A DNA stretch of 64,000 nucleotides, taken from contig NZ_CP028908.1 in NCBI RefSeq assembly GCF_024181725.1, positions 62,001 to 126,000 of the forward strand, given 5' to 3'. Source of the DNA: Bradyrhizobium sp. WD16 (lineage in GTDB: Bacteria > Pseudomonadota > Alphaproteobacteria > Rhizobiales > Xanthobacteraceae). Under the pieces are notes generated by a model. It was not told the origin of the DNA and did no database searches. It was given only the letters and a program-made list of their open reading frames with translations. Shown piece after piece: positions 2,075 through 63,655 of the stretch. The translations under genes and the position numbers were made by a program. How positions within the stretch are numbered: the stretch's first letter is position 1; every line of letters starts with the position of its first letter.

Positions 2075-2230
2075 ATGGTTGTCGCCGCCAATCACATTGC
2101 GCCGATCGTCGCCCTCCTCGCCGGCGTCTTGATCCTGATCGTGCCGAGGCTGTTGAACTTCATCGTCGCCATCTACCTCATCGTGGTCGGCTTGATCGGA
2201 CTCAACGGCATCTACCATTTCGTCAGCTAG
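2075..2230 (+). CDS. DUF3096 family small membrane protein (51 aa)
   Basis: A 51-residue protein, MVVAANHIAPIVALLAGVLI..., with two closely spaced hydrophobic helices split by VPRLLN. It matches the DUF3096 pattern (PIVALLAGVLILIVPRLL, then YLIVVGLIGLNG). GGGAG (2062-2066) supports the ATG at 2075, 8 bp downstream. The function of the family is unknown. The stop TAG (2228-2230) is the opening CTAG of repeat module B, one of several genes here that end exactly at a module. Confidence 0.75.
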   Translation: MVVAANHIAPIVALLAGVLILIVPRLLNFIVAIYLIVVGLIGLNGIYHFVS

Positions 2231-2302
2231 CGCGGTGGATCTGACGCTCGTATCAGCATTGCAGCGAGTTCCTCGTACGAGCGTCAGATCCAAAACCGCA
2301 AC
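2227..2302 (+). repeat. Single B module
   Basis: Arms GGATCTGACGCTCGTA / TACGAGCGTCAGATCC enclose a loop with CAGCATTGCAGCGAG. The left end CTAG is intact and provides the DUF3096 stop; the right end (AAAACCGCAAC) has lost its CTAG. Confidence 0.85.
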
Positions 2303-4140: not shown

Positions 4141-4306
4141 CTAGTGTCCCGTCTCCGAATTACCGCTTCGTTTGCCTCACCCTCGCACGGTCATTCGGAG
4201 ACATCGGGACACTAGCAAAATCAAAAAGCTAGTGTGGCTTCTGTCTCGCAATTGCCTACAAGGGCTTGCCGCAAAGGGCATAGGCAATTGCGAGACGCCA
4301 CACTAG
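4141..4306 (+). repeat. CTAG mosaic array 3: D-linker-A
   Basis: D (4141-4215, reverse orientation, arms GTCTCCGAATTACCG-like / TCATTCGGAGAC), linker CAAAATCAAAAAG (4216-4228), then A (4229-4306). The linker is attached to the arm of D that carries the extra CAT bulge, as in every other D with a linker. Confidence 0.9.
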
Positions 4307-5045: not shown

Positions 5046-5260
5046 GGTCGATACCCTTGTGGACTCTCAGAATAATTTGAAGCGCATGAACGACGCGAAG
5101 CGCCTCGCCCGGTTTGAAGCGCGGCAGCGCCACGCAGCTCGCTCCTCGTTCATGCCTGTGGTCATGAAGTCAGGGCGCTTAAAACCTATCGAGGCCCAAA
5201 ACGCAAGCTTGCTCGGCGTTCGCTGACCTGCCACCCAACTTTCGTCCGGCGACGATGACA

Positions 5261-5321
5261 GCGTTTTCCCGCGAGGTGGATACCGGTTCGCGCGAAGAAA
5301 CCGCGTCAAAACAAAAACCTA
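5261..5321 (+). repeat. Single C module
   Basis: GCGTTTTCCCGCGAGGTGGA followed by TACCGGTTCGCGCGAAG and AAAACAAAAACCTA. This family resembles the rhizobial intergenic mosaic repeats often seen ending in AAAACCTAG. Its last bases CTA give the TAG stop of ndvB on the minus strand. Confidence 0.85.
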
Positions 5322-14015: not shown

Positions 14016-14291
14016 TCATGGCCGCTTTCCGACGTTCGTGTCCGGAAGATGCTGCGGCTGACTCACGAACCTGGGAAACAACATACCCGTGTCCGCTGTG
14101 TCCGCCAGCGGCTCGCTCGGGACGGCCCCCTCGACAATGACTTCGGCGCACTCGCCATGGCAGCGGATGGCGCGGGCCAGACAGTTTGCCTCGCGGATCG
14201 CCATATCTCTCGACCAGAACGGCGTCATCATGCGTTTATCCATCCGGATGGCCCAGCCGTACTGCTCTTTGACAACGCAGAATGTAATCAT
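14016..14291 (-). CDS. Small hypothetical protein, 91 aa, with repeat-derived tail
   Basis: GGGGAGGTGCG before ATG 14291 is a strong ribosome site. The first 55 residues (MITFCVVKEQYGWAIRMDKR... CAEVIVEG) have the look of a compact domain seen in many rhizobial hypotheticals; I know no function. The last 22 or so residues (FPRFVSQPQHLPDTNVGKRP) are the translation of an F repeat module, so the ancestral stop was lost and the repeat is now coding. A perfect FixK-type box lies 114 bp upstream, suggesting low-oxygen control. Confidence 0.65.
   Translation of the reverse strand: MITFCVVKEQYGWAIRMDKRMMTPFWSRDMAIREANCLARAIRCHGECAEVIVEGAVPSEPLADTADTGMLFPRFVSQPQHLPDTNVGKRP
14021..14089 (+). repeat. 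Degenerate F module
   Basis: CTTTCCGACGTTCGTGTCCG, then loop AAGATGCTGCGGCTGA, then CTCACGAACCTGGGAAAC. It matches the F modules at 58556 and 61862 with several substitutions and lacks clean CTAG ends. It overlaps the 3' part of the minus-strand small gene and is translated there. Confidence 0.7.
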
Positions 14292-14453: not shown

Positions 14454-14853
14454 GCGCGTTTGGGATCTGACGCGCGTACGACGAATTCACTGCAATGCTG
14501 ATACGAGCGCCAGATCCACCGCGCTAGTGTGGCGTCTCGCAATTGCCTACCGCCTTTGCGGCAAGCCTCTCGCAGGCAATTGCGAGACATAAGCCACACT
14601 AGTGTCCTGTTTCCAACGTTCGTATCCCATTGCAGCAGGCGCTCATACGAACGTTGGAAACAAGGGGACACTAGCATCATTATGATTCTAGTGTGGTTTT
14701 GGATCTGACGCGCGTTCGAAGAACTCGCTGCAATACTGAGACGAGCGTCAGATCCACCACACTAGCATTTTGATTTTGCTAGTGTCCTTATGTCTCCGAA
14801 TTACCGTGCGAGCGTGAGGCAAATGGGGCGGCAATTCGGAGACAGGACACTAG
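14454..14853 (+). repeat. CTAG mosaic array 4: B-A-E-linker-B-linker-D
   Basis: The longest uninterrupted array: B (14454-14527), A (14524-14602), E (14599-14674, arms TTTCCAACGTTCGTAT / ATACGAACGTTGGAAA), linker CATCATTATGATT (14675-14687), B (14688-14765), linker CATTTTGATTTTG (14766-14778), D (14779-14853). Adjacent modules share a single CTAG. The E-linker-B part is the reverse complement of the B-linker-E part at 27741-27907. Its last CTAG gives the TAG stop of the minus-strand DUF4238 gene. Confidence 0.93.
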
Positions 14854-15963: not shown

Positions 15964-16177
15964 CGGACCCCGCCTGCAGCCTGCCAGCGCGGACGCGCGG
16001 GCGCACGCTTCCGGGAGAATACATCGCCCATGGCCAGTGGCAGGGAAGTTTTGGTTGCCGAATCCGATCTCGACTGTCGCCGATGGTCTTTGCGGGTCGA
16101 TCACGGACTGGACGTTGCCCCCGTCCGGCGTCGTAAAGTCGACGCCGCATCGTCTGGAAATCCTCGCTGATGCCGGA

Positions 16178-16270
16178 GCGTTTTCCCGCGAAGTGGATAC
16201 CGGTTCGCGCGAAGAAAACGCGTCAGAACAAAACCTGGAGCCTCCGCTCCGATTCCATCGGAGCGGAGGC
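16178..16270 (+). repeat. C-G mosaic repeat
   Basis: C (16178-16235, GCGTTTTCCCGCGAAGTGGA then TACCGGTTCGCGCGAAG) is followed directly by G (16236-16270), a near-perfect hairpin GCCTCCGCTCCGATTCCATC / GGAGCGGAGGC. It sits 32 bp before the ABC operon, so it could lie in that operon's leader. Confidence 0.85.
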
Positions 16271-27573: not shown

Positions 27574-27669
27574 GAGATGCGCCACATCGCCGCAATGCTC
27601 GAGGCCGGCGATCCTGCTGCGGCCCGGCAGGCGGCGAAAGCGCATGTCGGACAGGCGCGCAGCGGCCTA
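27574..27669 (+). pseudogene. GntR-family FCD-domain regulator, C-terminal remnant
   Basis: The frame reads EMRHIAAMLEAGDPAAARQA then AKAHVGQARSGL, matching the last helix of FCD-type GntR regulators (H-x-x-I-x-x-A-I/L-x-x-GD-x-x-AA). It begins without a domain before it and runs straight into an A module at 27667. Only the tail survives. Confidence 0.55.
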
Positions 27670-27995
27670 GTGTGGCGTCTCGCAATTGCCTATGCCCTTT
27701 GCGGCAAGCCCCTGTAGGCAATTGCGAGACATAAGCCACACTAGTGTGGTGGATCTGACGCTCGTTTCAGTATTGCAGCGAGTTCTTCGAACGAGCGTCA
27801 GATCCAAAACCACACTAGAATCATAATGATGCTAGTGTCCCCTTGTTTCCAACGTTCGTATGAGCGCCTGCTGCAATGGGATACGAACGTTGGAAACAGG
27901 ACACTAGCACTTTGATTTTGCTAGTGTCCTGATGTCTCCGAATGACCGTGCGAGGGTGAGGCAAACGAAGCGGTAATTCGGAGACAGGACACTAG
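27667..27995 (+). repeat. CTAG mosaic array 5: A-B-linker-E-linker-D
   Basis: A (27667-27744), B (27741-27818), linker AATCATAATGATG (27819-27831), E (27832-27907), linker CACTTTGATTTTG (27908-27920), D (27921-27995). Neighbours share one CTAG. The B-linker-E stretch is the mirror of that in array 4. Confidence 0.93.
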
Positions 27996-28744: not shown

Positions 28745-28888
28745 CTAGTGTGACGTCTCCGAATGACCGTGCGAGCATGAGGCAAATGGAGCGGTAATTC
28801 GGAGACAGGACACTAGTGTCCCTTTGTTTCCAACGTTCGTAGAAGCGCCTGCTGCAAAGGAATACGAACGTTGGAAACGGGACACTAG
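28745..28888 (+). repeat. CTAG mosaic array 6: D-E
   Basis: D (28745-28816) and E (28813-28888) share a CTAG and have no linker. In E the top of the stem has changed on both sides (CGTAGAAG...AAGGAATACG). Its last CTAG provides the stop of the SH3b gene. Confidence 0.9.
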
Positions 28889-29665: not shown

Positions 29666-30352
29666 ATGAACGCCCTCGTTCTCATTGCCGAAGATGAACC
29701 GCAAATCAGCGAAATCCTCGACGCTTATCTGACGCGCGAGGGCTTCCGCACGGTCTGCGCCGGCGACGGTCGAACCGCACTCGACCTGCATCTCGCGCTG
29801 AAACCGGATCTCATCCTTCTCGACGTCACGATGCCGCGCCTCGATGGTTGGGACGTGTTGGCCGAAGTCCGCCGCCGTGGCGATACGGCGGTCATCATGA
29901 TCACCGCTCTTGACCAGGATATTGACCGCCTGCAGGGACTACGCATCGGGGCCGATGACTATGTCGTCAAGCCGTTCAATCCTGTCGAGGTGGTCGCCCG
30001 CACCAAGGCGGTGCTGCGGCGGGTTGGTCAGTCAGGCGCTGGCGGCGTGCTTCGTGTCAACGGCGTCACAATCGATCTCGACAGTCACCTTGTAAACACC
30101 GTGGTGGATGGAACGGCGCAGCCGCTGCCGCTCACGCTCACCGAATTCCGCCTGTTGGCTCATATGGCGCGAACACCGACCAAGGCCTTCACGCGAAGCG
30201 AACTCGTCGACGCCTGCCTTCCCGGCAGCGACGCCCTCGAGCGGACGGTGGACAGCCATATCAGCAATCTTCGCAAAAAACTGGGCGAGGCCGGCGCGCC
30301 CGGCATGCTATCCGGTGTCCGCGGCATCGGCTATCGATTGGCCGCGATATGA
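29666..30352 (+). CDS. OmpR-family response regulator (AdeR/BaeR-like)
   Basis: A 228-aa transcription factor. The receiver domain has acidic pair ED (residues 9-10), phospho-acceptor Asp53 in LLDVTMPRLDGW, Thr in MITALDQDIDRL and Lys in VVKPFNPVEVVAR. The C-terminal winged helix (Trans_reg_C, residues about 130-225) ends RKKLGEAGAPG... GVRGIGYRLA. The receiver closely follows AdeR/BaeR, regulators of RND efflux pumps. Its last four bases overlap the kinase start (ATGA). Copy 2 of the shared motif lies upstream and copy 1 near the RND operon. Confidence 0.93.
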   Translation: MNALVLIAEDEPQISEILDAYLTREGFRTVCAGDGRTALDLHLALKPDLILLDVTMPRLDGWDVLAEVRRRGDTAVIMITALDQDIDRLQGLRIGADDYVVKPFNPVEVVARTKAVLRRVGQSGAGGVLRVNGVTIDLDSHLVNTVVDGTAQPLPLTLTEFRLLAHMARTPTKAFTRSELVDACLPGSDALERTVDSHISNLRKKLGEAGAPGMLSGVRGIGYRLAAI

Positions 30353-31449
30353 AGCGGCATCGCCTGAGCAGGCAGATCATGGTCTCGATGAGCGTCGTGG
30401 CGACCATCGCGATGCTGATCGTCTTCGTCGGCTCGTTCATTTTCTACGGAATATACCTTAGCTATTTTCCCCCGCCTCCCGGATCGCCTTCGCTTCTTCC
30501 GGAGGCGCCCGACCTGATGCTGATCGCATTCTTCCTTCTTATCGGATTGGCTCTTGCCATCATGGTCGCGCTTCGGCTGGCGAAGCGGATTCTGGCTCCG
30601 CTGAATTCCCTGGCGGAAACTGCACGCAAGATAGCTGCGGGCGACCTGTCGGCGCGTGCGTCTCCCGGCGACCGCTCGCTCGGCGAGACCGCCCAGCTGG
30701 TGGACGATTTCAATGCGATGGCGCAGAGGCTCCAGGATATCGCCGAAGACATGATTGCATGGAACGCAACGATCGCGCACGAGCTCAGGACCCCCCTGAC
30801 CGTCTTGAAGGGGCGCCTTCAAGGTATCGCCGACGGTATTTTCGCTCCCGACGAGGCATTGATCCGCAATCTCCTGCTGCATGTCGACGGGCTCTCGCGG
30901 CTCGTCGGCGACTTGCGGACCGTCACGCTGGCCGACGGCGGTCACCTGGACCTCAGGATAGAGACGATTGAACTCGCCGCAGAAATCCGTAGCGTCGCCG
31001 ACCTGCTGGAGCCGTCACTCGTGAAAGCCGGCTTTTCGCTCGACGTCACGCTGATCGATCTGGTCGTTCGCGGCGATGGCGTTCGTATTCGCCAGGCGCT
31101 GCTCGCCCTTCTCGACAACGCACAGCGTTATGCTCGACCCGGCTCCATCGAACTCTCGACTCTGAAATCGGGCAACTCGGCAATCATCCGGGTCGAGGAT
31201 GAGGGGCCCGGGTTGTCGCCGGAATTCGCCAAGCGCGCCTTCAAGCCGTTCGCGCGGAGCGAACCATCGCGCGCCCACCGCCTCGGCGGATCGGGCCTGG
31301 GACTATCCGTCGTTCGCGCAATTGCCGAGGCGCATGGCGGACACGCCGCGTACCGAAGATCCTCGCGCGGGGGCGCCGTCTTCGAGATCACACTTCCGCT
31401 TGAAGGCTGTGAGCCCGATATCGCGCCCGATGCGTCGATTCAATCCTAG
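30349..31449 (+). CDS. Sensor histidine kinase (AdeS/BaeS-like)
   Basis: A 366-aa inner-membrane kinase, translationally coupled to the regulator. Two membrane helices (residues about 10-35 and 58-80) flank a very short periplasmic loop (PPPPGSPSLLPEAPD), then HAMP and the H-box WNATIAHELRTPLTVLKG with the phosphorylated His. The N-box is LLALLDNAQRYARPGS, G1 VEDEGPGLSP and G2 GGSGLGLSVV. The short loop suggests sensing within the membrane. The protein ends SIQS with TAG from repeat module B. Confidence 0.93.
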   Translation: MKRHRLSRQIMVSMSVVATIAMLIVFVGSFIFYGIYLSYFPPPPGSPSLLPEAPDLMLIAFFLLIGLALAIMVALRLAKRILAPLNSLAETARKIAAGDLSARASPGDRSLGETAQLVDDFNAMAQRLQDIAEDMIAWNATIAHELRTPLTVLKGRLQGIADGIFAPDEALIRNLLLHVDGLSRLVGDLRTVTLADGGHLDLRIETIELAAEIRSVADLLEPSLVKAGFSLDVTLIDLVVRGDGVRIRQALLALLDNAQRYARPGSIELSTLKSGNSAIIRVEDEGPGLSPEFAKRAFKPFARSEPSRAHRLGGSGLGLSVVRAIAEAHGGHAAYRRSSRGGAVFEITLPLEGCEPDIAPDASIQS

Positions 31450-31520
31450 TGCGGTGGATCTGACGCTCGTTCGAAGAATTCGCTCCAATGCCGAAACGAG
31501 CGTCGGATCCACCGCACTCG
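31446..31520 (+). repeat. Single B module
   Basis: Arms GGATCTGACGCTCGTT / AACGAGCGTCGGATCC with loop CGCTCCAATGCCG. The opening CTAG gives the kinase stop; the far end is CTCG in place of CTAG. Confidence 0.85.
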
Positions 31521-43772: not shown

Positions 43773-44995
43773 TGGTCGAGGCCGGGGCGGCGACCGCGCG
43801 CGAAGGCGCCGCCGTGCGGCGGCGCCATATCGTCTATGTGCAGGGCTACGATCCGCGCGGCCTCGCGCAGTACTATCGCATGTTCCGCACCGAGCTGCGC
43901 AAATACGCCGCGCTGAACGGCGTCGCCGCCAGCGCCGGCCGGCCGGTCGTCGACGACGCCAAGGCGATGGCCTCCTGGACCATCGAGACCGCCGGCGACG
44001 GCTGGCAGACCACGACGCGCTACGACTTCCTGCGCTGGGAAGAGCTGATCAAGCGCGACCTCGAACGCCCCATGGCCCGCACCGTCGCGGTCGCCACCAC
44101 CTGTTTCCTGCGCCTCGTCTTCAACGGCGTCATCGCCCGCTTCGCCCGCGCCCATTGGCGCTTCGCGATCTTTGCCAGCTACCCCTACATCATGCTGACG
44201 CTCGAGGCGGCGCTGGCGCTGCTGGCCGGCTGGCTGGGCTTCGCCGGCCTCGCTCATGTCGGCGCGCCGCGGCCGCTCGCCGTTCTCGGCGCCGCCGCGC
44301 TGTTCGTGGCGGTGCTCGCCCTCCTGCTCGAGCGCCTCGAGAAGACGACTTACGTCCTCTATCTGATGGCGGACTGGATCTTCACCTTCGAATTCGCCCG
44401 TGGCCGGCGGCCCGACTGGGACGCCCGCATCGATCAGTTCGCCCGCGCCATCGTCGACGCGGTGGCGGCAAGCGACGCCGACGAATTCGTCGTCGTCGGC
44501 CACAGTTCGGGATCGTTTCTCGGGCTGGAGGTGCTGGCGCGCGCCTTCGAGATCGATCCCGCGCTCGGCCGCCGCGGGCCGCGCCTCGCCTTCCTCACCC
44601 TCGGCGGCAACCTGCCGATCGTCGGCTTCCACCGCCAGGCCAAGCCGTTCCGGGCGCGGCTGGCGCGCCTCGCCACCGAGCCGTCGCTGACCTGGATCGA
44701 CTTCCAGTCGCGCAAGGACGTGATGAACTTCTATCCGTTCGATCCGGTGGCCGGCCACGGCCTTTCGCTCGACGCGCCGCGCTGCAACCCGAAGATCGTC
44801 GGCGTGCGCTTTCGCGACGTCATCGCGCCGGAGCACTATGCCGCCTTCCGCCGCGACTTCTTCCGGGTGCACTTCCAGTTCGTCATGGCCAATGAGCGCA
44901 AGGCCGCCTACGACTACTTCGACATGATGTGCGGCCCCGGCCCGATCGCCGCCGCCGCCTCCGCGCAGCCGGCGCAGCTGGTGCGGTGGATCTGA
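43772..44995 (+). CDS. Membrane-anchored alpha/beta-hydrolase-like protein
   Basis: A 407-aa protein. After RRRHIVYVQGYDPRGLAQYY (first strand and oxyanion loop of a hydrolase) come two hydrophobic segments around residues 130-190 (FASYPYIMLTLEAALALLAG), then a second core with VVVGHSSGSFLG, a G-x-S-x-G-like nucleophile elbow (Ser in GHSSG). ATG 43772 overlaps the xseB stop. The substrate is unknown; lipid or ester is likely. The C-terminus LVRWI and its TGA stop come from a B repeat at 44978, so the original end was replaced. Confidence 0.75.
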   Translation: MVEAGAATAREGAAVRRRHIVYVQGYDPRGLAQYYRMFRTELRKYAALNGVAASAGRPVVDDAKAMASWTIETAGDGWQTTTRYDFLRWEELIKRDLERPMARTVAVATTCFLRLVFNGVIARFARAHWRFAIFASYPYIMLTLEAALALLAGWLGFAGLAHVGAPRPLAVLGAAALFVAVLALLLERLEKTTYVLYLMADWIFTFEFARGRRPDWDARIDQFARAIVDAVAASDADEFVVVGHSSGSFLGLEVLARAFEIDPALGRRGPRLAFLTLGGNLPIVGFHRQAKPFRARLARLATEPSLTWIDFQSRKDVMNFYPFDPVAGHGLSLDAPRCNPKIVGVRFRDVIAPEHYAAFRRDFFRVHFQFVMANERKAAYDYFDMMCGPGPIAAAASAQPAQLVRWI

Positions 44996-45265
44996 CGCTC
45001 GTATCAGTGTTGCAGCGAGCTCTTCATACGAGCGTCAGATCCAAAACCGCACTAGTGTCCCGTCTCCGAATTACCGCTACGTTTGCCTCGCACTCGCACG
45101 GTCATTCGGAGACATAGGGACACGAGCAAAATCAAAGTGCTAGTGTGGCTTATGTCTCGCAATTGCCTACGAGAGGCTTGCCGCGAAGGCGGTAGGCAAT
45201 TGCGAGACGCCACACTAGAATTATGATCATTGCTAGTGTCCCATTGGTTCTAACGTTCGTATGGG
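44978..45265 (+). repeat. CTAG mosaic array 7: B-D-linker-A-linker-E (truncated)
   Basis: B (44978-45055, left end CTGG), D (45052-45126, right end CGAG), linker CAAAATCAAAGTG (45127-45139), A (45140-45218), linker AATTATGATCATTG (45219-45232), then only the left arm of E (45233-45265, TCTAACGTTCGTATG). E is cut where unrelated sequence starts. Confidence 0.9.
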
Positions 45266-58555: not shown

Positions 58556-58630
58556 CTGGCACCCCGTTTCCGAAGTTCGTGAGCCAGTTGCGGCACCTTC
58601 CGGACACGAACTTCGGAAAGCGGGCACTAG
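58556..58630 (+). repeat. Single F module
   Basis: GTTTCCGAAGTTCGTG, loop AGCCAGTTGCGGCACCTTCC, then CACGAACTTCGGAAAG. Left end CTGG, right end CTAG (58627-58630). The latter gives the TAG stop of the PGAM gene on the minus strand. Confidence 0.88.
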
Positions 58631-59226
58631 CCGTGCCTGCTCCAGGTGCCGCCGGCAAAGAGATAGACAACGCCCTGCTCGATGAAGAGGTCGACCGCGG
58701 CGCGAGGCTCGATCAGCCCGAGCTCGACCATCACCGCCCGCATGGTACCACCATGGGCGACCACCACGGTGTCGCCGGTCAGCGTTGCCAGCCAGCCGCG
58801 AACCCGTTTGGTGAGATCGGCGTAGCTTTCGCCGCCAGGGGGCGCCACGCTCCACTTGTCACGTTCGCGCGCTGCGAAGATCTCGGGTGAGATCGCCCGC
58901 GCCTCGGTCAGCGTCGAACCCTCCCAGTCGCCATAGGCGACCTCGCGCAAGCGATCATCGAGGCCGTAATCGCCGGGGGCGAGGTCAAGGCCGCCGCGCA
59001 GAAGTTCCATGGTCTGGCGCGCCCGGCCGAGCGGGCTGGCGACGAAAGGCAGGCGCTGCGCCTGGAGCTGCCGCTTGGTCAGCAGGTCGCGCAGAACGAG
59101 CGCCGCCGCCAGCGCCTGCTGCCGGCCGCGCTCGTTGAGCGGAATGTCGCGGTGCCCCTGCAGGCGGCCGGCCGCGTTCCATTCGGTCTGGCCGTGACGG
59201 ACGTAATAGATCACCGGCACCGCCAT
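58627..59226 (-). CDS. Histidine phosphatase family (PGAM-like) protein
   Basis: A 199-aa phosphatase or mutase. The catalytic His lies in VIYYVRHGQTEWNAAGRLQG, the second motif in ASPLGRARQTMEL, the Glu in VAYGDWEGSTLTEA and the second His in VVVAHGGTMRAVMVEL. It overlaps no neighbour but is adjacent to fabI in the same direction (8 bp). The stop lies in the CTAG of an F module. Confidence 0.92.
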   Translation of the reverse strand: MAVPVIYYVRHGQTEWNAAGRLQGHRDIPLNERGRQQALAAALVLRDLLTKRQLQAQRLPFVASPLGRARQTMELLRGGLDLAPGDYGLDDRLREVAYGDWEGSTLTEARAISPEIFAARERDKWSVAPPGGESYADLTKRVRGWLATLTGDTVVVAHGGTMRAVMVELGLIEPRAAVDLFIEQGVVYLFAGGTWSRHG

Positions 59227-60167: not shown

Positions 60168-60447
60168 GGAGCCCTCTCCGCTCCGATGGCATCGGAGCGG
60201 AGGCTCTAGTGTGGCGTCTCGCAATTGCCTACCGCCTTTGCGGCAAGCCTCTCGTAGGCAATTGCGAGACATAAGCCACACTAGCTTTTTGATTTTGCTA
60301 GTGTCCTGATGTCTCCGAATTACCGTGCGAGGGTGAGGCAAACGAAGCGGTAATTCGGAGACAGGACACTAGTGTGGCGTCTCGCAATTGCCTACCGCCT
60401 TCGCGGCAACCCTCTCGTAGGCAATTGCGAGACATAAGCCACACTAG
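60168..60447 (+). repeat. CTAG mosaic array 8 (left part): G-A-linker-D-A
   Basis: G (60168-60206), A (60206-60284), linker CTTTTTGATTTTG (60285-60297), D (60298-60372), A (60369-60447). The array continues beyond the IS3 element at 61714: the next base C plus ACTTTGATTTTG there make a normal linker. Confidence 0.92.
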
Positions 60448-60476: not shown

Positions 60477-61337
60477 TTAAGCAGCTTTTAGTTCCATCGC
60501 GATCGGGCTGATGTAGCCGATGGCCGAATGGCGACGGATACGATTATAGAAGCCCTCGATATAGGCAAAGATATCCCGTCTGGCTTCCTCGCGTGTCGCA
60601 TAGTGGCGGTGATGGACGAGCTCGGTTTTGAGCGTGTGGAAGAAGCTCTCCATCGGAGCGTTGTCGTAGCAGTTGCCCTTGCGGCTCATCGAGGCTCTGA
60701 GTCCGGCGGACTGGATCATCTTTCGGTAATCGGCCGAGGCATATTGAACGCCGCGATCGGAATGGTGGATCAGGCCTGGACCAGGCCGCTGCACCGCGAT
60801 GGCCATCTTCAATGCGGCCAACGGCAGGTCGGTGCGTAGATGATCCTCCATCGCCCAGCCGACGATTTTGCGGCTGTAGAGATCCATAACGGTGGCCAGA
60901 TAGAGCCAGCCCTGATCGGTCTCTACATAGGTGATGTCGGCCAGCCAAATCCGGTTCGGCGCGGCGGCGATGAAGTTGCGGTCGAGCAGATTTGGAGCGA
61001 TCGGGAGATCGTGCCGGCTGTCGGTGGTCCGCACCCGGCGCGGCCGCGCCATAATGGCCCTGATCCCGTGATGGCGCATCAATCGCTCGATACGGCCACG
61101 GCTCGCCCCATGGCCCTGAGCCTTCAGTTCTTCATGGATGCGCGGGCTGCCGTAGCGTCCGTGGTTGTCGCGATGGACCTGTTGGATGTCGTCCAGGAGC
61201 TCACGATTGGCAGCGGTCCGCCGGCTCGGCGGGCGCGAGCGCCAAGCATAATAGCCGGCCGGCGATACCTCGAGCACGTCGCACATGAGTCTTACCGGAT
61301 AGTCGGCGCGGCGATCTTCGATGAAGCGAAATCTCAT
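60477..61337 (-). CDS. IS3-family transposase OrfB (DDE)
   Basis: A 286-aa catalytic unit: HTH_21 start (MRFRFIEDRRADYPVRLMCD), then an rve core with WLADITYVETDQG (first Asp), HHSDRGVQYASADYRKM (second Asp) and NAPMESFFHTLKTELV (Glu). Its ATG overlaps the OrfA stop by 4 bp. A run of six As then G just before (61367-61373) allows -1 frameshifting to make OrfAB. Confidence 0.95.
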   Translation of the reverse strand: MRFRFIEDRRADYPVRLMCDVLEVSPAGYYAWRSRPPSRRTAANRELLDDIQQVHRDNHGRYGSPRIHEELKAQGHGASRGRIERLMRHHGIRAIMARPRRVRTTDSRHDLPIAPNLLDRNFIAAAPNRIWLADITYVETDQGWLYLATVMDLYSRKIVGWAMEDHLRTDLPLAALKMAIAVQRPGPGLIHHSDRGVQYASADYRKMIQSAGLRASMSRKGNCYDNAPMESFFHTLKTELVHHRHYATREEARRDIFAYIEGFYNRIRRHSAIGYISPIAMELKAA

Positions 61338-61713: not shown

Positions 61714-61939
61714 AGCACTTTGATTTTGCTAGTGTCCCTATGTCTCCGAATGACCGTGCGAGCGTGAGGCAAACGAAGCGGTAATTCGGAGACGGGACAC
61801 TAGGTTTTTGTTTTGACGCGTTTTCCTCGCGCGAACCGGTATCCACTTCGCGGGAAACGCTCTAGTGCCCTTTGCTTTCCGAAGTTCGTGTCCGGAAGAT
61901 GCCGCAACTGACTCACGAACTTCGGAAACAGGGTACCAG
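61714..61939 (+). repeat. CTAG mosaic array 8 (right part): linker-D-C-F
   Basis: Linker remainder (61714-61728), D (61729-61803), C in reverse orientation (61800-61865, AAACCTAG side first), F (61862-61939, arms TTTCCGAAGTTCGTG / CACGAACTTCGGAAA). The last end is CCAG in place of CTAG. With the left part and the IS3 removed, the array was G-A-D-A-D-C-F. Confidence 0.9.
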
Positions 61940-61968
61940 GTTGGTGAGCGAGTATCCGCAGGACCGCC

Positions 61969-63264: not shown

Positions 63265-63369
63265 ACGGCGCGAGCGGCGGCGATCATTCGGCCCACACCT
63301 GCATGGCGCGACCAGCACGCGCGGAACGATTCCGCGACCGCCTCCATTATCGTGGCAAGACCCGTTCCA

Positions 63370-63655
63370 CCCTGTTTCCGAAGTTCGTGTAAGAGGTCGC
63401 CGCGATGTTGCATGAACTTCGAAAAGCGGGCACTGACGCTCGTACGACGAATTCGCTGCAATGCTGATACGAGCGTCAGATCCACCGCACTAGTGTCCTG
63501 TCTCGAATTACCGCCCCATTTGCCTCACGCTCGCACGGTAATTCGGAGACATAAAGGACACTAGCAAAATCAAAAAGCTAGTGTGGCTTATGTCTCGCAA
63601 TTGCCTACAGGGGCTTGCCGCAAAGGGCATAGGCAATTGCGAGACGCCGCACTAG
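63370..63655 (+). repeat. CTAG mosaic array 9: F-B-D-linker-A
   Basis: F (63370-63433, CTGTTTCCGAAGTTCGTG ... ATGAACTTCGAAAAGC) runs into a B module that has lost its left arm start (63431-63493). Then D (63490-63564), linker CAAAATCAAAAAG (63565-63577) and A (63578-63655). The F-B join looks like recombination between modules. Confidence 0.88.

Follow-up and report, generated by a model that had tools for sequence, protein, structure and literature searches.

Paired CTAG-bounded hairpins of Bradyrhizobium sp. WD16 form a self-nesting repeat element, probably a MITE of the IS630 type

The CTAG-bounded hairpins dispersed through the genome of Bradyrhizobium sp. WD16 (G000) are arranged in pairs, each forming an element of ~167 bp, A-N13-D or E-N13-B, with CTAG at both of its ends and flanking a 13-nt spacer. 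In our judgement these repeats are very probably a non-autonomous DNA transposon of the IS630/Tc1-mariner type (a MITE), with four copies of the terminal repeat and with ends that rebuild its own target. The stretch of DNA analysed, here called the window, comprises 64,000 nucleotides (bases 62001-126000) of the 5.945-Mb single-contig genome.

Hairpin pairs, their spacer and nesting

The census covered 644 kb of the genome, made up of the window, 20 kb next to it and 28 further 20-kb stretches (560 kb when taken alone), and gave 61 hits for family A, 57 for D, 43 for B, 35 for E, 5 for F and 8 for C. For the window itself the counts of the initial annotation (A 9, B 8, D 9, E 4, F 4 and C 4) were reproduced identically by blastn, and the separate family G that it listed was not identified there.

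Neighbouring units less than 40 nt apart were separated by exactly 13 nt at 76 of the 117 gaps of this census and by exactly -4 nt at 36, meaning in the latter case that one CTAG is common to both units, while 63 of the 79 spacer junctions joined A to D or E to B in a single relative orientation. Using a parser that strips complete pairs, nested ones included, we recovered 68 pairs in 79 arrays, which take up 136 of the 196 units and leave 60 outside parsed pairs. By comparison, shuffling the unit labels 2,000 times yielded on average 1.4 pairs (maximum 7), and 2,000 shuffles restricted to within arrays yielded 17.8 (maximum 29). The modules had been proposed to join in any order and orientation, but the arrays follow a strict pairing grammar with nesting, by which the single hairpin was ruled out as the unit.

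Seven arrays are nested, with E-B within A-D or A-D within E-B, at either of the inner CTAGs. The site at 14454-14853 is such a case, reading on the forward strand as a truncated B followed by A [E-N13-B] N13-D. Here the B hairpin (14458-14527), truncated at its left end, has its right CTAG in common with an A hairpin (14524-14602), the left half of an A-N13-D element that is split by a complete E-N13-B element of 167 bp (14599-14765, 183.5 bits); the latter lies nested at the inner CTAG that separates A from the spacer of the split element, and has its own AT-rich 13-nt spacer at 14675-14687 with CTAG on either side. The 13-nt spacer of the split A-D element follows at 14766-14778, and its right half, a D hairpin, at 14779-14853. 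A second nested array on the forward strand (27667-27995) is an A-D element with B'-E' (27741-27907) nested at the inner CTAG after A, and on the reverse strand B' and a partial E' enclose D'-A' (45052-45218) at 44978-45263, an array that the parser missed because its outer spacer has 14 nt.

The window also contains simpler arrangements. A complete A-D element (D' N13 A') lies at 4141-4306 on the reverse strand, an A-N13-D element joined to a further A by a common CTAG at 60206-60447 on the forward strand, and a partial B joined to a complete D'-N13-A' (63490-63655) at 63416-63655. A' and B are joined by a common CTAG at 779-930, a partial A and a D occupy 1600-1727, a single B hairpin is found at 2227-2300 (reverse strand), and a D hairpin with spacer-like flanks at 61729-61803 (forward strand).

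The arms of the different families had been described as differing entirely, yet A-D and E-B pairs can be aligned to each other as well as to relatives in the genus, and there is no split between the relatives matching one kind of pair and those matching the other (64-66% identity for A-D and 68-70% for E-B). Among 18 E-B pairs of 167 bp the mean pairwise identity was 0.93. Judged from these alignments A, B, D and E are the halves of two related two-hairpin elements. F is a lone hairpin whose arm resembles, by eye, the GTGCCC-type left hairpins of other genomes. F occurs in the window singly at 61862-61940 (forward strand), at 58556-58630 (reverse strand), and as remnants at 14024-14087 (forward strand) and 63369-63434 (reverse strand).

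Copy number, spread and unoccupied sites

The modules recur well outside the window, as the mosaic-element view of the initial annotation had implied. The 560-kb spread sample holds 152 units of families A, B, D and E, from which 54 pairs were parsed, with densities of 0 to 23 units per 20 kb, which extrapolates to ~1,600 units and ~570 pairs genome-wide; moreover, all 150 of the G000 candidates scored match the two-hairpin model, in agreement with a dispersed, modular, CTAG-sharing element present in well over 100 copies. A single grammar accounts for most of an extrapolated ~1,600-unit repeat landscape in one genome. At the gathering score of Rfam the window matched two tRNAs only, with no family match for the modules, so that the suggested search for a known Rfam family returned none.

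CTAG itself is concentrated in these repeats. In the 644 kb, 300 of 400 CTAG lie inside the 17.6 kb hit in the census (the modules together with C, F and two pieces of IS), giving 17 per kb versus 0.16 per kb elsewhere, and in the 560-kb sample the figure is 229 of 321. The window has 53 CTAG, modules included, where 74 would be expected from its trinucleotides and 209 from its base composition. With CTAG so rare in the remainder of the genome, the four CTAGs of the element itself would be frequent landing sites.

A search of relatives with a covariance model, as the initial annotation had advised, showed that the pair is widespread. With model R1, built from pairs of this genus only, it was found in 64 of 119 genomes of the family at E<=1e-6, with up to 23 candidates scored in each, and these carriers represent 31 of 47 genera. 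Across the order, with E<=1e-8 and no more than 11 candidates scored per genome, 39 of 249 genomes contained it, 34 of them in 13 other families. When 150 candidates were scored in each of nine carriers, between 17 and 149 matched. Eight plasmid records, from Labrenzia and Roseibium, were matched too, while the plasmid search gave no match for the window array or for locus L102; the copy on plasmid pTHAF187b_a of Labrenzia sp. THAF187b aligns over all 167 bases at 74% identity, and it has a spacer of 13 nt and a CTAG at either end.

Since the two genus mates of G000, at 74% and 72% identity to a 2-kb stretch of the window, were judged too distant, we used sister pairs of other genera to look for unoccupied sites. 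The joined flanks of 20 of 46 insertions were queried against 22 genomes of the same genera, and 39 loci were read among the matches listed, 30 of them from that search and nine as further stretches. Of these, 24 alignments span the junction, for 11 insertions. The unoccupied site is exactly CTAG in 13 alignments, covering 7 of the 11 insertions; in 3 it is TTAG, and the other 8 have different letters. The CTAG contained in the query may favour this reading in the alignment. Around four of the 13 CTAG sites the alignment is ungapped for 20 nt to the left and right, in the best case with 98.7% identity over 224 nt, and the other nine have gaps in the flanks nearby; we take these unoccupied sites as probably orthologous to the occupied ones. 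The empty sites anticipated by the initial annotation are supported for sister genomes by these alignments. One insertion (L163 of G114) is also filled in G074.

With CTAG at both ends of the element and a single CTAG in the unoccupied sites, a duplication of TA and one of CTAG look alike. An element with G as its first base and C as its last, inserted at C^TA^G with duplication of TA, would rebuild CTAG at both junctions, and we favour TA as the sequence duplicated. Recombination or replication slippage among short palindromes, with no transposition at all, could produce arrays such as the tandem A-D-A-D repeats seen in the census. It would not readily give the nested order A[E-B]D and its converse, the differing flanks, or unoccupied sites with a single CTAG, and we regard it as a very remote alternative to the transposon reading.

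Hairpin structure and the position of stop codons

The CTAG-bounded hairpins that were first recognised by inspection are real, and they fold far better than shuffles, with a folding z of -13.5 for one E-B pair (as DNA) and of -11.0 for one A-D pair (as RNA). Among 146 near-full-length G000 units in which the core motif could be located in each of the two arms, 145 (A 50/50, B 28/28, D 48/49 and E 19/19) have one arm whose core is 3-4 nt more distant from CTAG than that of the other; a further 25 units are without an exact core on at least one arm. In A-D and E-B pairs it is the arm with the displaced core that faces the spacer.

The comparison across genomes started from 91 model matches on both strands, which came down to 46 places when the better strand was kept for each; L091 (own genome) and L093 (match close to a contig end) were omitted from this set. 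Of these 46 pairs (~167 bp, 24 genomes), 39 start and 41 end with CTAG, and 38 contain C(T/C)AG-N13-C(T/C)AG, with the spacer consensus CAAnTnTATGATT. Judged by eye, their outer tips look matched to each other (GTGTCC with GTGTGG, GTGCCC with GTGCCG, GTGGTCC with GTGGAGC), and the left and right outer arm cores agree at 9.62 of 14 positions within elements versus 8.52 of 14 between them, the maximum of 5,000 shuffles being 9.18. An alignment (A3) was made from 32 of the 46 pairs, from other genomes of the order, and two window pairs, with the remaining 14 dropped by hand under no fixed rule, several of them near-identical to retained rows. In all 34 aligned pairs the bulge (2-5 nt) is on the inner arm; hairpin 1 has 4-5 unpaired nt on its inner side versus one on the outer, and hairpin 2 has 2-4 on its inner side with no alignment column on the outer. 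Both loops seem, by eye, to keep a GCnGC or GCnGCAA-like motif across genomes (alignments A1 and A3).

The arms of the hairpins change in concert. Among 21 pairs of the genus (20 distinct) 97.6% of the cells are paired and 27 of 46 base pairs show double changes, versus at most 41.8% and at most 6 in slid controls. Across the order, the 34-pair alignment has 98.3% of its cells paired and double changes in 34 of 48 pairs, with a covariation score of 0.427 versus 0.133 when shuffled and at most 0.092 when slid. Any of three processes would suffice to explain this pattern, namely selection on the fold, template switching from arm to arm, or selection that keeps both arms as binding sites. That the bulge has persisted would speak against plain homogenisation of the arms.

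A second feature with a possible bearing on host function is the position of the outer CTAG. In the window it provides the TAG of a kinase-like ORF, of a phosphoglycerate-mutase-like ORF (both named by eye), of an ORF ending at 28885, and of a minus-strand frame of 314 codons at 14850, the last of these being the outer CTAG of the D hairpin at 14779-14853. The single B hairpin at 31446-31520 (forward strand) has in its left CTAG the stop of the histidine-kinase-like ORF 30349-31449, and the D and E' hairpins joined by a common CTAG at 28745-28888 have in their outer CTAG (28885-28888) the stop of a minus-strand ORF; the F hairpin at 58556-58630 does the same with its CTAG at 58627-58630 for the minus-strand ORF 58627-59226. 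In the Labrenzia copy the last CTAG contains the stop of an annotated SDR oxidoreductase gene.

Among the 153 outer ends tested in G000, 104 are an intact CTAG, and 19 of these close a frame of at least 200 codons, versus 4 and 10 in the other two frames. At a length of at least 100 codons the numbers are 26 versus 10 and 24, so that the excess over one control frame vanishes, while in other genomes 31 of 79 close such a frame versus 14 and 10. CTAG distant from modules in G000 showed no stop bias at this length (37, 36 and 48 of 188 strand-ends).

Both the covariation across the order and the stop codons, including the annotated one in the terminal CTAG of the Labrenzia plasmid copy, would be expected of a conserved structured RNA, or of a 3'-UTR or terminator module kept for its host function, whose mobility is incidental. 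Against this reading, the element is absent at matching sites of sister genomes, its copies are nested in one another, the stop excess in G000 is lost against one control frame at the lower length threshold, and the arms are copies of one repeat, which template switching could also keep matched. Furthermore, the stop is preserved when an element inserts at C-TAG, so the stop codons are most simply accounted for by harmless insertions having survived, and we consider a conserved RNA quite improbable as the primary explanation. A role of the element in mRNA 3' ends is nonetheless possible. More speculatively, and with a rather small chance of being right, the two-hairpin fold with its bulges may itself be under selection in a mobile transposon, which would then act as a 3'-UTR module spreading via C-TAG stops with the protein unaltered, its double hairpin ending or protecting transcripts, and also as a safe landing pad that draws IS630 elements away from genes.

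IS630 elements, a likely mobiliser and related systems

G000 has 34 DDE_3 matches, which belong to three elements labelled here alpha (15 copies, ends GAGCAGACTCC), beta (10 copies, ends GTCGCCCGATTC) and gamma (9 copies of 1,184 bp, 8 of them identical and one at 99.9%, ends CTAGTGTTCCGTCTCGCAAAT / CTAGTGTCCTGACTCTCAATTGCC), the last assigned to IS630 by NCBIfam and to DDE_3 by Pfam. Of their 66 distinct ends, 62 are at CTAG and 4 at TTAG, and 42 adjoin a module, a spacer, or a C or F repeat, so that the IS copies and the hairpin elements occupy the same kind of site; a few IS630 ends adjoin another IS at a common CTAG, and at L030 and L034 IS630 elements of different groups stand side by side with one CTAG in common.

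The outer arms of the element resemble the ends of these insertion sequences. Beyond TAG, the gamma end agrees with the outer arms of A and D at 15 of 22 positions each, a value equalled by one of 3,846 background sites in either case, and in G069 an arm of the element agrees at 19 of 22 positions (0 of 3,846 background sites) with the end of that genome's own IS, a gamma relative with a protein 46% identical. The likeness of the B arm to the G069 IS is weak (13 of 22, reached by 4 of 3,846 background sites), and all six arm-to-IS comparisons were chosen as the best-looking. Against the IS ends compared, the inner arms with their bulge (A, D and E) reach at most 9 of 22 in ungapped alignment. 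CTAGTGTCC is also the start of the gamma relatives from a Beijerinckiaceae bacterium and from a Bradyrhizobium sp. No autonomous IS with E- or B-like ends was found in G000.

These likenesses suggest how the element may move. Each hairpin would consist of two inverted copies of an IS630-like terminal repeat, giving four per element, with the outer two intact and the inner two carrying an insertion of 2-5 nt, that is, the bulge. By moving the GTGTNN-type tip off the core, the bulge may disable the inner ends, and the pair would then be mobile as one. An IS630-family transposase acting in trans would cut the outer ends and insert the pair at C^TA^G with duplication of TA. Landing within an existing copy would create head-to-tail chains, nested elements and IS630 copies inside arrays, and landing in a C-TAG stop codon would leave the stop intact. 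Against this account, a close gamma relative (E<=1e-40) was found in only 11 of 33 element-rich genomes, versus 1 of 20 non-carriers (Fisher p 0.016, uncorrected for kinship). The 33 carriers are the genomes with at least 17 matches, among the 64 with any and with G000 excluded; 20 non-carriers were compared and 35 others left out. In the 22 of the 33 carriers that have no gamma relative at this threshold, the mobiliser must be gone, more distant or something else. The one non-carrier with such a relative, G038 (L120, L124, L127 and L129-L137), offers a natural contrast, with 12 gamma-transposase relatives and no two-hairpin element at the threshold used.

REP/BIME hairpins are bulged as well. 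As described in PMC3733652, REP/BIME sequences are palindromes of 20-40 bp, present in high copy number (in Bradyrhizobium too) and often paired, with a GTAG/CGTC tag at one end, and the GTAG-tagged REPs have an associated tyrosine transposase (RAYT). Paired hairpins with a tetranucleotide recall this arrangement, and the element could accordingly be a palindrome of this kind moved as a single strand by an HUH (Y1/RAYT) transposase, with CTAG replacing the GTAG tag. If such an element carried CTAG at its terminus, HUH transposition could likewise leave CTAG at both ends, and G000 has a single Y1_Tnp match (REP-transposase-like), at G000:C1:55793-56113, 6 kb upstream of the window. Y1_Tnp was found in 11 of 33 carriers versus 4 of 20 non-carriers (p 0.23), making it no better a guide than the gamma relatives. 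Since, moreover, the element has CTAG at both ends, where the GTAG tag of REPs is one-ended, and since its ends are inverted repeats like those of IS630, whose copies occupy the same CTAG sites, we think mobilisation by an HUH enzyme improbable and an IS630-type transposon the better account.

Within the IS630 family, the Shigella IS630 is reported to insert preferentially into the TA of CTAG (Tenzen and Ohtsubo 1991, cited in PMC2170065), and ISY100 is described as moving by cut-and-paste with TA duplication (PMC2170065). They share with our element the CTAG target (IS630) and, by NCBIfam, the transposase family of gamma, but are autonomous, whereas the element described here is 167 bp of hairpins without a gene. 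The nearest described relative is RUP of Streptococcus pneumoniae, given in PMC2229807 and PMC3049150 as a 107-bp MITE attributed to IS630-Spn1, with 9-bp terminal repeats and 108-110 copies. RUP is likewise a high-copy intergenic repeat with TA at its ends and terminal repeats like those of a resident IS630, but it is described as a simple 107-bp repeat, in contrast to an element with two hairpins, four repeats, inner bulges, a 13-nt spacer, self-nesting and an order-wide distribution. The kind of element is known. We found no description of the paired-hairpin build, the grammar or the spread in the open literature searched, from which most subscription papers were absent, and a literature search with literal element sequences gave no relevant title among the matches listed. 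In eukaryotes, multimers of the plant Stowaway and Tourist MITEs arise by self-insertion at a target rebuilt by the ends of the element.

The element is a clear example of a transposon-like sequence making its own targets, whose arrays can be read as records of insertion order. It also lends itself to natural tests of the way in which unlike end copies determine the unit that moves, and of whether scarcity of CTAG in bacterial genomes channels transposons into stop codons and old elements, and the covariance model can be used to annotate the family.

Family C, a 57-bp repeat (AGCGTTTTCCCGCGAAGTGG...), occurs in the window at 1568-1597, 5260-5316, 16177-16233 and 61806-61861; it sometimes adjoins hairpin modules, two IS630 copies adjoin it too, and its likeness to the hairpins is no greater than that of shuffled C. 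Between two module arrays lies, by eye, an IS3-type transposase-like ORF (60477-61337, reverse strand), and in G047 (C72, L117) a gamma-transposase relative contains two in-frame TAG codons.
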